11,757 nucleotides of DNA from Stephanodiscus triporus. Lineage: Eukaryota; Bacillariophyta; Thalassiosirophyceae; Thalassiosirales; Thalassiosiraceae. Every line of letters begins with the position of its first letter. Position 1 is the stretch's first letter. Below are positions 2,827 to 10,375 of the stretch, piece after piece. The notes under the pieces are model-generated. The model was not told where the DNA came from, did not search any database, and saw nothing but the letters and a program-made list of their open reading frames with translations. The stretch lies in NCBI GenBank assembly GCA_036939755.1, contig JALLAZ010002035.1, positions 1 through 11,757 of the forward strand, read 5' to 3'. The translations under genes and the position numbers were made by a program.

Positions 2827-3740
2827 CCAGGGTATGATCTTTCTAAATGCGTTGGGATTGATCATATGCGATATTCACACAATCAACTTCCTGGGGCATC
2901 AGTACCACCCAAGTCACCTGCTCTAGCACCCGACATCTCAGAGGCAACATTGTCGGCTAATTCACCACAGGTCCCCTTGGTCTCCTTTATCGGTTGTCAG
3001 TCCCATGGTACTCCTTCTGAGATCAACACCTCCAAAACTCCACCTTGGGATATCACCGCCACGCCACGCATTGGGGATCATGTTGATCCCCCCCCCCCGT
3101 GGAGCCGCCTTTGTCTCATCCTGCTACTGAACCCTACAATATTCCTTCCGGATCCATTACTGACAACATTCTCAAGAGCCAGGCCCATACTTTTTCACCA
3201 ACTACCCCTTTCGAATTCCCATTTTATACTGTAACGGCGCTACAAGCAATGACTTCTGATGTTCCTAACACTACACCCAACATAATCACACCGTCGGCCA
3301 GCATCATACAGCATACGGGTAGTTGTGGCACCCCAAGTCTTTGGCATCAAGGGCGACAGCCGCTTATCAGTTCAGGTCAATGAATGGTCTCATATGGATG
3401 GGGGCGCAAATATCTGCCTTACGGGTGATCTTGGTATTCTCACTGATGCTGTCAACATTCCACCACTTCCCATCATGGTGGGTCTCAATGGCAATGGCTC
3501 ATTGGTTGACGATTGTTGCACTAAACTCTGGGCTATATTCCTCTCTGTCAACTGTGTTGCTATTCTGCAAATGCTGTCAAAACCATCATCTCCCCTCAGG
3601 CAATTCTCGGATCAAGCGACCTCTTTGCCTCGTGGACAATGACTGGTTACTAGGATAACTGGCCGGGGGCCTTTCATTTTGACAGTCATGACAGCTTCAT
3701 CAACATGATTTTGTCTGCTTGATGGGATTGCCCCTTTTCA
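2827..3740 (+). pseudogene. Retropepsin-like protease remnant of the Copia-like element
   Basis: A Ser/Thr/Pro-rich linker (2827 to about 3300) changes frame at an 11-C run at 3088-3098. The protease-like block begins near 3320 and carries MDGGANICLTG; its DGGA, at 3397-3408, takes the place of the usual D[S/T]GA of retropepsins. It is followed by DDCCTK, and after another frame change near 3525 by SANAVKTIISPQAILGSSDL. Stops at 3651-3653 and 3720-3722 then end any useful frame. In an intact element this enzyme would cut the Gag-Pol polyprotein. I recall DGGAN as normal for the diatom Copia family, so the Gly may be ancestral rather than damage. The integrase that should follow is missing. 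Confidence 0.7.
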
Positions 3741-4510
3741 TGGAGCTTTTGACGGAGGAATGTAGAAAGGTGTATGCAATTTTTAGGAATTATGGGGTGG
3801 TGACATGGGAATGAATTGGGGTATCTCTAATTGACATGGGGGAAAATTTTGAAACAACGGATATAGTGGTATGTAAATCACAAAAATGCAACCAAAAAAG
3901 ACAATTCATCTGCCACACTCTGCCAAAGCGTAGCATAGGTATAAGTTAAGAATGGCAGACCAAACATATCATCTAGATACTTTTTTACTCTTGATCTAGA
4001 AAAGAAAATTGTTTAACACTAATTCACATATGTCATGGCCGCTAGTAGATTAGATGATAGATACTACCTACACCTTCAGACTCTGGAAACCAAAAAAGCA
4101 GGCATATTATCTTCTAGAGAGAGTGTGTTATCTGATTGTTGTGTAATACCTCTCACTCTTCTGGCTTGCCCGATTTGCTTGCTGGCAATGTTCCTGCTCC
4201 TTTGAGCTGAATGGCCTTAACTGCATGCATCCAATTTTTATTCCACCCATGGCGCGCCTCAAAGTGTTATTAGCCTCGTGGTGATCATCAATATTTTACA
4301 GCCTTATTTCTCACGGCAATGATTGTTATTTTATTCTGCCTCTCAGCAATAACCAATATTTTATTGCAATGATTGATACTCATCGGCCTCTCAGCAATAA
4401 GGATACTACTCAACTCTTTTCCGCCTAATGGTGATGCTATTCCATTCCGTCTATTCCTCATGGAAATATTCTTCCACCCACTTGCACCAACCCTTATGCT
4501 TATGCTCCAC
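3741..4510. other. Non-coding stretch between the two retroelements
   Basis: No reading frame here is convincing. The left part (to about 4140) is AT-rich and follows the break of the Copia-like element. A short diverged tandem repeat lies at about 4316-4400. I see no LTR of the upstream element. Confidence 0.5.
4316..4400. repeat. Diverged tandem repeat, two units of about 50 bases
   Basis: GCAATGATTG occurs at 4316-4325 and 4366-4375, and GCCTCTCAGCAATAA at 4338-4352 and 4386-4400, in the same order. The two units differ in the middle (TTATTTTATTCT against ATACTCATCG). This looks like a local duplication of about 48 to 50 bases with no evident function. Confidence 0.7.
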
Positions 4511-4745
4511 TGTCGAGAGAGGTCGGACAGACTGAGGATACCATCTACGTAAATAGTAGGGTACATACTAGGTAGTAAGTAGGTACGTAGGTGTACCATA
4601 ACTAAAAGAGTAGATAAGGTTAGCTATCACTTATAACCATGAGTCAAAAGTCCTTGGCTCAGTGGTTAGGCATATTTTATCTGCCACCGCACTGGCTTTA
4701 CCCTNGCCACCGCACTGGCTTTACCCTACGTGGCCTCTCTTGAGA
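4511..4745 (+). repeat. Left LTR of the miniature element
   Basis: This copy begins TGTCGAGAGAGG and ends CTCTTGAGA. Against the right copy I count six substitutions and one one-base indel over about 211 bases, about 97% identity, so the insertion is fairly young. It carries an extra 23 bases (an N plus a 22-base duplication, 4705-4727) absent from the right copy. A tRNA-like A-box lies at 4655-4665. Confidence 0.8.
4683..4727. repeat. 22-base duplication either side of a single N
   Basis: GCCACCGCACTGGCTTTACCCT stands at 4683-4704 and again at 4706-4727, with an undetermined base at 4705 between. The right LTR has one copy only. Two contig ends overlapping by 22 bases and joined with one N instead of being merged would give exactly this pattern. 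Confidence 0.85.
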
Positions 4746-4760
4746 GGTTATGAGCCCAAC
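4746..4760 (+). promoter_or_regulatory. Primer-binding site, half-tRNA-Met type
   Basis: GGTTATGAGCCCAAC follows the left LTR with no gap. Its reverse complement contains GGGCTCATAACC, a methionine anticodon arm: loop CTCATAA with CAT as anticodon, T before it and AA after it, closed by GGG/CC stem bases. This sequence is present in yeast initiator tRNA-Met. Copia-type elements can prime from an internal cut of this tRNA rather than its 3' end. Confidence 0.75.
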
Positions 4761-5184
4761 GGAATTGTTGGACCGGGTTCGAGTCCCCGTGAGTTCCCTC
4801 TATGTAAGTCGCCACGATCGCTTTAGAGAGAACTTGAAGGGAGTTCTGGATCCGGGTTCAAGAGAAGTCGTTTAGGGTTAACCCTAGCTCGCTGGTTAAC
4901 AGTGGAGCTGTCGTGAGACGAATTCGCGCTGCGAAGTTGTCCGATATCGGAGCTTTCTCAACGCAATGTCGTCCATCGTACTCGAATCGTACGTACGAAC
5001 AAGGAATCTTCATAGTGAAAGAAAGATTTCTCGTACAAATACGATCCAATACGTGTAGTAGAGTACCAGCTCCAGAGGGAGAGCATACGTACGTCTACGT
5101 TAGTACAACTAACAGTGCGAGTAAAATCAACTACCAGCTGTGTCTCAGTTGTCGATCTCGTCGAAAATGACATTTCTTCTCGTT
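4761..5184. other. Internal non-coding region of the miniature LTR element
   Basis: The longest open frames are under 90 codons and show no Gag, protease or polymerase motif. The region holds the B-box-like GGTTCGAGTCC (4776-4786), a second weaker look-alike GGTTCAAGAGA near 4855, and several TACGTA-type palindromes. It presumably carries packaging and dimerisation signals, which cannot be read from sequence alone. Confidence 0.55.
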
Positions 5185-5194
5185 AGAGAGGGAG
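5185..5194 (+). promoter_or_regulatory. Polypurine tract
   Basis: AGAGAGGGAG is ten purines in a row, ending exactly at the base before the TG that starts the right LTR. This is where the plus-strand primer of reverse transcription should be. Confidence 0.7.
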
Positions 5195-5405
5195 TGTCGA
5201 GATAGGTCGGACAGACCAAGGATACCCTCTACGTAAATAGTAGGGTACATACTAGGTAGTAAGTAGGTACGTAGGTGTACCCTAACTAAAGAGTAGATAA
5301 GGTTAGCTATCACTAATAACCATGAGTCAAAAGTCCTTGGCTCAGTGGTTAGGCATATTTTATCTGCCACCGCACTGGCTTTACCCTACGTGGCCTCTCT
5401 TGAGA
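5195..5405 (+). repeat. Right LTR of the miniature element
   Basis: It begins TGTCGAGATAGG and ends CTCTTGAGA, matching the left copy at about 97% and lacking the N-associated duplication. The sequence after it (AATCATGTGC) is unrelated to that after the left LTR, so the repeat boundary is sharp. Confidence 0.8.
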
Positions 5406-6240
5406 ATCATGTGCAACGTGATGACATCCTTCATATGCAATAGATAGGCAAACGTACCTATCATCACTCCTTTACCACTGCTCTTGCTGGCTTAGCTTTT
5501 GGGAAGTTAGCCGGAATTCTGTGTAACAAAACTGCCAGAGCCAAACTGTAGCCTTATGCCATGCGTGAGGCTGTAGATCCACTCAACGGATGGATTCCAC
5601 ATCAATGTCAAACATGTGCAAGATGAATGACATCCTTCATATGCAATGGATAGACACATGGACCTATCATCACTCCTTTGCCACATTTCTTGCTGGCCTC
5701 ACCATACTTGTTTGTAGCTTAAAAACCCTCAATAAACCAACATCCTTGTGCTGCTACAACCCCACCAATCTTATGACCACCATTGGCAGTGACACTTTTT
5801 CTCCCTCCCCTCTTACTCCAAACCTTTCTCCTTGTGCTTGCAAATGCACCCTCAGGAACAACATCCAAGTGAGCATCTCTGGTTGGTGGTGGATTCACCA
5901 AATTTGACCAGAGCTTCCAACGGCAATGGTCCCCATTGACATTGACAAAGTAAAACAATCATTTTTGCCCCCTTAAAATTGCCTCTGCACTGCCCATGTT
6001 ATGACTGCCTTCCTTGCTGCCACCACTAGAACCTAGCTACAGGATGTTGCCAATAGGTCCATAGGATTATGAACCTATTGCATTGAAATAGCCAGAGATG
6101 CCCCAGACATGGCTACAGGCATCTTTTCTTGCAACCGCATCATCGCTGTTGACATGCTATGTGTGTGTATAGTATTATAACTGATAGTAATAAATATATA
6201 TTTCTAGTTATTATGACATTACTTATTGTGTAGCATGTTG
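5406..6240. other. Non-coding stretch with a diverged duplicated segment
   Basis: No intact gene is supported. The open frame 5590-5907 covers one copy of a duplication described separately, and I recognise no domain in it. The right end near 6160-6230 is AT-rich and simple in sequence. The stretch may be old coding or mobile DNA, but I cannot identify it. Confidence 0.45.
5408..5702 (+). repeat. Diverged direct repeat, about 88 bases, offset 206
   Basis: About 5408-5497 and 5613-5702 share GACATCCTTCATATGCAAT, CCTATCATCACTCCTTT and CTTGCTGGC in the same order. Both translate to a related peptide, with ILHMQ, TYHHSF and LAGL kept in both; the first copy has a stop after ILHMQ. Conservation of the peptide suggests an old coding origin. 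I do not recognise the protein. Confidence 0.6.
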
Positions 6241-7235: not shown

Positions 7236-8774
7236 CTACAGCATAGCTTCACCTAGCAGTGCGTTTACAAGTTGATGACCAAGCTCGACCGTCGCGCTGG
7301 CTCCACGGCCATCAGATAACTCTGCATTCACCTCGACTATTTCCGCGCTAGCAAGGGCTCCACTCTGAACTACGTGTTCTGCCACAAAGTGCGCCTCCCG
7401 CCAAGTCAAGCCACCTCTCACCGCAGTGCCAGTTGCGGGTGCATGCATGGGATCGACGGCATCAATGTCGTATGACAAATGTATGGGACGATCAAAATCA
7501 TGCTTCAACAAATGCTCCAGGGCGAGATCCATGACCCGTCCTATCCCGAGGTGATCAATATCGTACATTGTGAAAGTTTTTATTCCGAGTTTTCGTATGA
7601 ATTGCCTCTCTGCCTTGTCAATATCTCGTAAGCCGACATAAACGAGCGAGTCCGGGGATAAGCGCGGCGGGCTAGTCCCCTTTTCCAGCCATTCGAATCC
7701 GGGGATGACACTCCGATCGGGTACCAATTCTTTCATCATGAAGGCCAGTGGCATGCCGTGCATGTTCCCACTATCCGATGAAGAAGGAGTGTTCAGATCA
7801 GCATGGGCATCGACCCAAATCACACCCGTGTTGGGTCTCGCACGCAATATTCCCGCCAACGATCCAATGCCAATACTATGATCACCACCCAATATTAGAG
7901 GGAATCTGCCGAGCTTTAATCTGGATTCCACCAAGTCGGCAAGAGCCTTCGTGCCAGCGCCGACTTCAAGACTACGGGTTCAATTGCATGCCGGGACAAG
8001 CACCGTGTCACAATTAGACGAGTACGGAGTACAAAGACGTTATTTCTCTCGAAAGGGAAAATGAATTTACCTGTTATGGACCTGTGAGGTGTATATGGAT
8101 GGTTGCTTTGATTTTTCGAGATGAGCGCAGATTGCTGAAAAGTCGAGATCTGGGATATCTTCCACTCTCCAGCCCAGGTCACTAAGTTCCCGGACGAGGC
8201 CTTGCGCTCGTAGTAGTGCGGGGCCTGAATCCTTCAGTACAATATAAATCATTGAAAGATGAGAGTTGAGACTATATCAACCAGCGTTCTTTTGGGTTGC
8301 ACAAACTCTTCACATCTTACCGTGCCAACAAAAGGTTGCCCGAATGTCATTGGAGCCCTGTGCGATCGATATATTGGGGGGAAATGGTATGTAAGTGCGG
8401 TTCTCCAATTCATTAGTTGTCACAACAGCATGTGTAACTTACCCGATAACAGAAACTGTTTTTGGAGACGCCACATGGCGATAAAGATTCTCTGACTCGA
8501 GCGAGGGAATATGTTGCGTATGGACGTTTGAATAACCCATACCACCACCCTTTCTGTCACAGTCATCACCAATGGCCTGTCGTTTGCCTATTTCCGTCGC
8601 TTCGTTCCGGAAACCTCGGCCAATGATTCGGACTTCTTCCGAGAGTAGTTTCTCTAAAATGTCAACATCACGAGAAGTAAATGATGAACTGTTGAGCTCA
8701 GCTTGTCCCAAATGAGATACAGAAGAACGTAACTCACCCGCCAGTGCAGTTTTTCTCGCCACAGATCGAAGCAT
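7236..8774 (-). CDS. ARG: Arginase, probably mitochondrial, four exons
   Basis: Arginase hydrolyses L-arginine to ornithine and urea with two Mn ions. Exons on the minus strand: 8774-8443, 8357-8321, 8231-8071 and 7971-7236, giving 421 aa. Introns of 85, 89 and 99 bases all fit GT-AG and keep the frame. Motifs in order: VIGAP (109-113), GTDSGP (122-127), GGDHS with His208, DAHADLN with Asp231, His233 and Asp235, SGNMHG (244-249), GLRDID (290-295), SYDIDAVDP with Asp345 and Asp347, and VEVN with Glu390. All expected metal ligands are present, so it should be active. The core matches the usual arginase of about 320 aa. The first 105 or so residues are extra, and the start MLRSVARKTALAGELRSS is basic and Ser/Ala-rich, like a mitochondrial targeting peptide. 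The ATG at 8774 has G at -3. Agmatinase and related ureohydrolases are less likely given GLRDID and SGNMHG. Splice sites are predicted by eye. Confidence 0.93.
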
Positions 8775-9323: not shown

Positions 9324-10375
9324 ATGAAAATTCTTGTCCCCATCAAGCGAGTCATCGACTACGCGATCAAAATTCGCGTCGACCCCACCAAGGGCGCGCA
9401 GGGCGTGCAGCTCAGCAACGTCAAGATGAGCATGAATCCATTCTGCGAGATCGCCATCGAGGAGGCCATACGTCTCAAGGAGAAGACAACTGCCGAGGTG
9501 GTGGCAGTGTCGATCGGGCCGAAGCAATGCACCGAAACGCTGCGCACGGCATTGGCCATGGGAGCGGACAGGGGCATACACATTGAAACGAAGGCGGACG
9601 TTCGGGGGGATTATATCGATATGCAACCGTGGGGGATCGCCACTCTCTTGAAGGGCGTGGTGGAGAGGGAGGGTGGTGTGGATTTGGTCCTGTTGGGAAA
9701 GCAGAGTATTGATTCGGTGAGAGGTTGATTCGTGTTTTACTGTACCTTACTTTACTGGTGATGGATATTTGATCACCATGAATAATTTTCTTTCTAATTT
9801 CCTACAATTTGTTTTTCCGTTACCTCCAGGATTGTGGTCAAACTGGAACACTTCTTGCTGGTCTTTTGAATGCTCCGCAGGCTACATTTGCGTCGAAGGT
9901 GGATAGAGGCGATGATGGGTCTTTCACTGTAGAACGTGAGACTGATTCGGGTAAGGATCGGCATCACGCTAGATTTGATACTTCATGAAGGATAAACAGT
10001 TTTTTTCTATCCATCATCTTTATTTACCAGAACACAGACCACTCACATACTCATTTCCCTCGCACTTGAATCTCAGGAACTGAAGTCATTAAGCTGAAGC
10101 CGTCTGCCATGCCCGCAATCATAACATGCGACCTCCGTCTCAACACGCCTCGCTATCCAACAATGCCAAATATAATGAAAGCGAAGAAAAAACCCGTGCA
10201 GACTATTTCGCTCGAAGATATGGTGAAAGAATTGGGTCTTAATCTTGATGAAGTGCTCACTCCAAAGAATGAGGTCATTGAGGTCTATGAGCCTCCTCCG
10301 CGGAAGGAAGGGGAAATGGTCGGGGATGTAATGGAATTGCTCGCCAAATTGAAGGAGAAGGGATTGGTTGCTTGA
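9324..10375 (+). CDS. ETFB: Electron transfer flavoprotein beta subunit, three exons
   Basis: The ETF heterodimer accepts electrons from matrix acyl-CoA and amino-acid-pathway dehydrogenases and passes them to ETF:ubiquinone oxidoreductase. The alpha subunit holds most of the FAD site; beta binds AMP. Exons: 9324-9716, 9830-9950 and 10077-10375, giving 270 aa (human 255). Introns are 113 and 126 bases, GT-AG, frame kept; reading through intron 1 meets a stop at 9726. Clear family blocks: [12 protein letters not shown] near the start, [39 protein letters not shown], then [20 protein letters not shown] and PNIMKAKKK. The start [10 protein letters not shown] has A at -3 and matches where family members begin. 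Eukaryotic ETF beta usually has no cleaved presequence, and none is seen. In the partner-docking loop [13 protein letters not shown], Met201 stands where human has Leu195; Lys206 and Lys209 align with the human methylated lysines. Splice sites are predicted by eye. Confidence 0.96.

Follow-up and report, generated by a model that had tools for sequence, protein, structure and literature searches.

A miniature LTR retrotransposon family in the diatom Stephanodiscus triporus, probably moved by Copia-type enzymes and possibly carrying a split tRNA-type promoter

Two direct repeats enclosing a short interior without apparent coding capacity lie within the 11,757-nucleotide stretch of Stephanodiscus triporus DNA analyzed here (contig JALLAZ010002035.1 of assembly GCA_036939755.1; hereafter the window), raising the questions of what kind of element they delimit, which enzymes move it, and how it would be transcribed. 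Around them, the window holds an arginase (7236–7934, − strand) and an electron transfer flavoprotein domain (9324–9728, + strand), both ordinary host genes; for the arginase, identity is 95% with a protein in JGI data and 86% with one from Thalassiosira sp. AJA248-18, and further named matches come from Thalassiosira profunda, Cyclotella atomus, and Skeletonema, which places the host in the Thalassiosirales. A dispersed repeat at 3711–4046, ending near 4046, has 74–81% identical copies in contigs C120, C929, C1267, C1115, C640, C677, and others, and a tandem repeat with a unit of ∼200 bases (5406–5699) directly follows the 3′ repeat of the element and forms arrays in C36, C9, C1308, C1124, C443, and C999 as well. 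Between 314 and 3700, ORF fragments give the impression of a decayed Copia gag/protease region, and four ORFs tested there had no Pfam match above the cut-off.

The element has the layout of a miniature LTR retrotransposon of the TRIM type (Table 1): a short pair of LTRs flanks a short non-coding interior, with a total below ∼1.3 kb, a primer-binding site (PBS) beside the 5′ LTR, and a polypurine tract (PPT) beside the 3′ LTR. The initial annotation had recognized a TRIM-type element from two repeats of about 211 bases at about 97% identity that begin with TG and end in GA, a site abutting the left repeat, a ten-purine tract abutting the right repeat, and a 449-base interior coding for nothing visible. 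Each of these features held up on closer analysis, as the LTRs are identical at 205 of 211 aligned bases (97.2%), both start with TG and end with GA, the site and the tract adjoin their respective LTRs, and the one interior ORF tested (4913–5170, 85 aa) had no Pfam match. TG..GA is one known type of non-TGCA LTR end. The left LTR is longer as assembled (235 vs. 211 bases) because an N within it has the same 22 bases on either side; this duplication is absent from every other aligned LTR, and we therefore interpret it as an artefact of joining during assembly; without it, the true LTR would measure ∼212 bases.

Table 1. Features of the TRIM copy in the window, with positions counted from the first base of the window.
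Feature	Position	Strand	Length or remark
Whole TRIM copy	4511..5405	+	895 bases as assembled, ∼872 without the duplicated stretch
5′ LTR, TGTCGAGAGAGG...CCTCTCTTGAGA	4511..4745	+	235 bases; includes the assembly join
A-box-like TGGCTCAGTGG in 5′ LTR	4655..4665	+	
T4 run past the A box, 5′ LTR	4675..4678	+	possible weak Pol III terminator (putative role)
Assembly join: N at 4705 between identical 22-base stretches (4683–4704, 4706–4727)	4683..4727	.	
PBS GGTTATGAGCCCAAC, half initiator-tRNA-Met register	4746..4760	+	adjoins 5′ LTR
Non-coding interior	4746..5194	+	449 bases
B-box-like GGTTCGAGTCC in interior	4776..4786	+	beyond PBS
PPT AGAGAGGGAG	5185..5194	+	adjoins 3′ LTR
3′ LTR	5195..5405	+	211 bases
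A-box-like TGGCTCAGTGG in 3′ LTR	5338..5348	+	no B box after it
T4 run, 3′ LTR	5358..5361	+	proposed RNA end (putative role)

Further copies and solo LTRs, for which a search of the host genome had been suggested, are present. Querying the host assembly (21.65 Mb in 1324 contigs) with the element gave at least 16 matches on at least 15 contigs. Two full-length LTRs are found in the window copy and in those on C664 and C944, the 5′ LTR is shortened in C329, the 3′ part is found in C455 and C1149, and C407 and C351 hold partial copies. Lone LTRs occur in C1260 and C816, and another five contigs carry an LTR piece at an end (C678, C1215, C1159, C684, and C96); LTR counts given below cover 19 LTRs or pieces, a second match in C816 (447–501) being left out. 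Family LTRs start with TGTCGAGAGAGG and end with CCTCTCTTGAGA or near it, the variants being TTAAGA (C1159, C684, C96), TTAAGT (C455), and more divergent ends in C816, C407, and C1149. A pattern spanning the junction of LTR end and PBS (≤2 mismatches) gave five matches, four of them exact and all family copies and one unrelated with 2 mismatches, against two matches for its reversed control; the PPT/LTR pattern (≤3 mismatches) gave seven, five in the family and two outside it, against two for the control. A tandem 684-base array is ruled out, the copies being dispersed with differing flanks. Dispersed copies, common boundaries, PBS, PPT, and lone LTRs, with no recognizable protein, show the element to be a TRIM, an assignment about which we have very little doubt. 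Beyond the host, two LTR patterns searched in viral contigs and one searched in prokaryote genomes returned 0 matches each, and one viral contig (L088) matched over 18 bases, which we judged to be chance, the alignment spanning 24 bases and having phage-like genes next to it. Among the individual pieces, C407:114–255 (L017/L060) lies 1.3 kb from a tRNA-Ala gene and C1215:1–76 lies 3 kb from a tRNA-Met gene, these being two cases only, and the lone LTR at C816:447–734 (L016) has an inverted 55-base LTR piece ∼20 bases off.

The absence of a target duplication, noted for the window copy at the outset, extends to other copies: although a TRIM would be expected to have one of 4–6 bp, a word of ≥4 bases common to the 15 bases on either side was found in none of the six copies with two flanks, the C329 copy with its shortened 5′ LTR included. 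Each of the three copies whose LTRs are both full-length has a left and a right flank of different origin. The right flank of the C664 copy belongs to a repeat found without interruption in C879 and C1024, where the sequence is unrelated to the copy's left flank; the left flank of the C944 copy continues in C99 (82% over 457 bases) and its right flank does not; the right flank of the window copy is the ∼200-base tandem repeat (as in C36 and C1308; also C9), and its left flank is not. Because they continue repeats that are uninterrupted elsewhere, these single flanks represent true insertion ends. The mismatch reflects either recombination between elements or the assembler crossing between copies, and the latter is favored because of the N in the window and the LTR pattern of C664 and C944, whose 3′ LTRs are 1 base apart in 211 and whose 5′ LTRs are 5% apart (∼8% divergence within each copy's own pair). 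LTR divergence is unusable as a clock for this element: with a join in the 5′ LTR and flanks of different origin, neither the 97% LTR identity nor the missing target duplication can date the insertion, and the fairly recent movement originally proposed is not supported.

The PBS pairs at 13 of 15 bases with initiator tRNA-Met sequences from yeast, plant, and human, all organisms other than the host. When 434 interior offsets were compared with these tRNAs, only offsets 0 and 1 reached 13, one reached 12, and the rest reached at most 11. With the anticodon at 34–36, the first PBS base stands opposite nucleotide 40, and relative to these tRNAs the site fits the register of a half initiator tRNA-Met whose last nucleotide is 40. 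Half-tRNA priming is described as starting at nucleotide 40 in hemiviruses (PMC1181622), and a half-tRNA primer is also reported for copia (PMC5371799). The copia-style half-tRNA primer site of the initial annotation is supported. Against this, no PBS pairing with the 42 distinct host tRNAs examined, organelles included, exceeded 12 of 15, and 21 of the 434 offsets do as well; a search of the assembly for the host initiator tRNA-Met gene did not find it. PBS-like sites at C68, C80, C95, and C882 were rejected, as ARAGORN gave no tRNA there and by eye they are not family copies. An RVT_2 (Copia-type reverse transcriptase) search of the assembly gave 100 matches; pattern searches, together with examination of 20 of these matches with short flanks and without 5′ ends, found no autonomous Copia element with matching ends or PBS. 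We consider it likely that the TRIM is moved by Copia-type (hemivirus) enzymes.

The tRNA-type A and B boxes, like the N at 4705, are additions to what had been annotated. Canonical A- and B-box patterns were used for the box search. Box patterns of the form TRGCY/YGG/GGTTC are also given in PMC10886601. The A box occupies LTR bases 144–154 and is intact in 13 of the 15 LTRs covering it (all but C1215, C1159, C684, and C96, which do not span it in full), one of which is just 80% identical to that of the window; the T4 run behind it is present in 17 of 18 LTRs, being uncovered in C1215. In 20-base segments across 11 near-complete LTRs, several of them nearly identical to one another, conservation was highest for starts at 139–142 (LTR 139–161; 0.964 vs. 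a mean of 0.863); with one LTR per lineage and 12-base segments, LTR 26–38 and 44–55 score above the A box. The B box starts 30 bases into the interior; of four copies, two (C944 and the window) keep it intact, C664 deviates by one base, and C329 has a shortened form. With the B box lying there, only the 5′ LTR is accompanied by both boxes and would hold the full promoter.

The A–B distance is 99 in C944; for the window copy it is 121, or 98 without the duplicated stretch, and in host tRNA genes it is shorter (43–58). Among 2000 dinucleotide shuffles, the A box appeared in 78, the B box in 57, and an ordered A–B pair in 0, under a distance limit of 20–130 chosen after the boxes were seen. Scanning of 269,968 host bases (overlaps included) gave 20 A–B pairs, namely 16 tRNA-gene rows and four element rows that represent two copies, each seen twice. 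ARAGORN at default settings found no tRNA gene inside the element, and at relaxed scores it made many scattered, inconsistent calls that we took as noise. Rfam gave no match in the window at curated cut-offs and, at lax cut-offs, a weak mascRNA-like match at 4744–4796 (E 1.2, 18 bits vs. a cut-off of 42.5); it gave no tRNA-like match in the C944 and C664 copies. The TTTT-free interior of the window copy was dropped as a sign of Pol III, the interiors of C664 and C944 having TTTT.

From these boxes we infer, with a confidence that stops a little short of even, that RNA polymerase III may make the element RNA from a split tRNA-type promoter. Transcription would start ∼8 bases upstream of the A box in the 5′ LTR, the two halves of the promoter being the A box in the LTR and the B box past the PBS, and would stop at the T4 run of the 3′ LTR, leaving a repeated end (R) of ∼30 bases. 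A Copia-type (hemivirus) element would probably supply the enzymes that copy the element RNA and insert the product; half an initiator tRNA-Met, extending to nucleotide 40, would prime minus-strand DNA at 4746, and the purine tract would prime the plus strand. The strict form of the split promoter, with the A box and terminator in the LTR and the B box beyond the PBS, is a tentative proposal and rather doubtful. Against Pol III stand the T4 run that is also present in the 5′ LTR, which makes read-through necessary, the long gap between the boxes, a B box that is intact in only two of the four copies, the absence of any tRNA by Rfam and of consistent ones by ARAGORN, and the two LTR stretches that can score above the A box. 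Overall, our best explanation is a TRIM that Copia-type enzymes probably move, with the Pol III split promoter as its weaker part. Counting against it are the lack of a target duplication in all six copies with two flanks and the failure to find a host initiator gene in the assembly or an autonomous partner among the 20 reverse transcriptase matches examined.

The same TRIM could equally be transcribed by Pol II, like most, its A and B boxes being a chance pair or the functionless relic of a decayed tRNA or SINE, and we put the chances of this at about one in two. The B box broken in two of four copies, the tRNA models without a match, and the other LTR stretches that are equally conserved all fit such a reading, which has more difficulty with an A box that 13 of 15 LTRs keep intact even where overall identity falls to 80%, with the 0 of 2000 shuffles having an A–B pair, and with the limitation of A–B pairs, in the host DNA examined, to tRNA genes and this element.

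As to the enzymes, it is unlikely that a Gypsy-type or other LTR element moves the TRIM and that the initiator-tRNA match is incidental: among 434 offsets none scores above that of the PBS (offset 1 ties), which begins at the half-tRNA position, reports exist of half-tRNA priming in copia and hemiviruses (PMC5371799, PMC1181622), and the assembly has its 100 RVT_2 matches, Copia-type being the only reverse transcriptase searched. This alternative draws on the failure to find a Copia partner with the same ends in 20 of those 100 matches and to find the host initiator tRNA in the assembly. We give very little credence to an assembly artefact, in which wrongly joined repeats mimic an LTR element. 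The N join in the 5′ LTR of the window, the mismatched flanks in three of three full copies, the contrast in C664 and C944 between 3′ LTRs 1 base apart and 5′ LTRs 5% apart, and the five LTR pieces at contig ends all point to misassembly; against it, the order LTR-PBS-PPT-LTR recurs in C664 and C944 without the duplicated stretch, lone LTRs exist in C1260 and C816, and single flanks are true insertion ends. Misassembly touches which ends are joined, not the element itself.

A split promoter, if true, would show how layout alone can leave an LTR element active at its 5′ LTR and silent at its 3′ LTR; every new copy would regenerate the promoter, and lone LTRs would be promoter-dead. It would also make this, as far as our literature search shows, the first small-RNA-promoter TRIM of the diatom/stramenopile lineage. 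PMC10886601 lists TRIMs carrying tRNA-type promoters in fungi, animals, and one lycophyte; with a diatom added, TRIMs would have become linked to small-RNA promoters a further time, in a distant lineage. A search of titles and abstracts, with most subscription papers beyond its reach, found no diatom TRIM described. Elements of this kind can escape published repeat searches in diatoms: the pipeline described for Cyclotella cryptica required TG..CA ends, 5-bp duplications, and an LTR distance of ≥1500 (PMC7466962).

Among known systems, the Copia elements of diatoms (CoDi) are described with LTRs of 153–844 bp, and three of 26 families are without TG/CA ends (PMC2806351); they are coding and 5–8 kb long, unlike the present element, and no common sequence was found in the 20 reverse transcriptase loci examined here. 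TRIMs, which the initial annotation called best known from plants, have further records in ants, a flatworm, and bivalves (PMC3532108 among the sources) and in fungi (PMC10886601). By description, the TRIMs/SMARTs of plants and animals, such as PbTRIM of ants, resemble the diatom element in size, non-coding interior, PBS, and PPT, and those of plants share its methionine-tRNA PBS, whereas PbTRIM differs in having 4-bp duplications and a leucine-tRNA PBS (PMC3532108).

Closer parallels are found in Helenus (TRIMp3; Kojima, 2024, PMC10886601), TRIMs whose LTRs contain a tRNA-like sequence. As described there, the fungal families are 311–1263 bp long, non-coding, and ordered LTR-PBS-PPT-LTR, like the diatom element, and most of them use a tRNA anticodon loop, in the main that of initiator tRNA-Met, probably with Copia enzymes, a primer type that the diatom element has in common with them. 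Both an A box of tRNA type and a B box with GGTTC occur in Helenus, and the diatom element has both box types; in Helenus, however, both lie within the LTR, whereas the B box of the diatom element is interior, past the PBS. Helenus also has 4–5 bp duplications, not seen in the diatom element, and is listed in that account from fungi, animals, and Selaginella, with no diatom or other stramenopile. As its boxes are not both in the LTR and its lineage is unlisted there, the diatom element is not a Helenus; Pol III transcription of Helenus is itself just predicted (PMC10886601). In Cassandra, the plant 5S rRNA TRIM, the 5S promoter is entirely within the LTR, in contrast to the tRNA-type boxes of the diatom element, which are split across the LTR end. 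The Pol III RNA of Cassandra, as described in PMC10886601, begins in the 5′ LTR and runs as far as the 3′ LTR, a course that we tentatively propose for the diatom element too.
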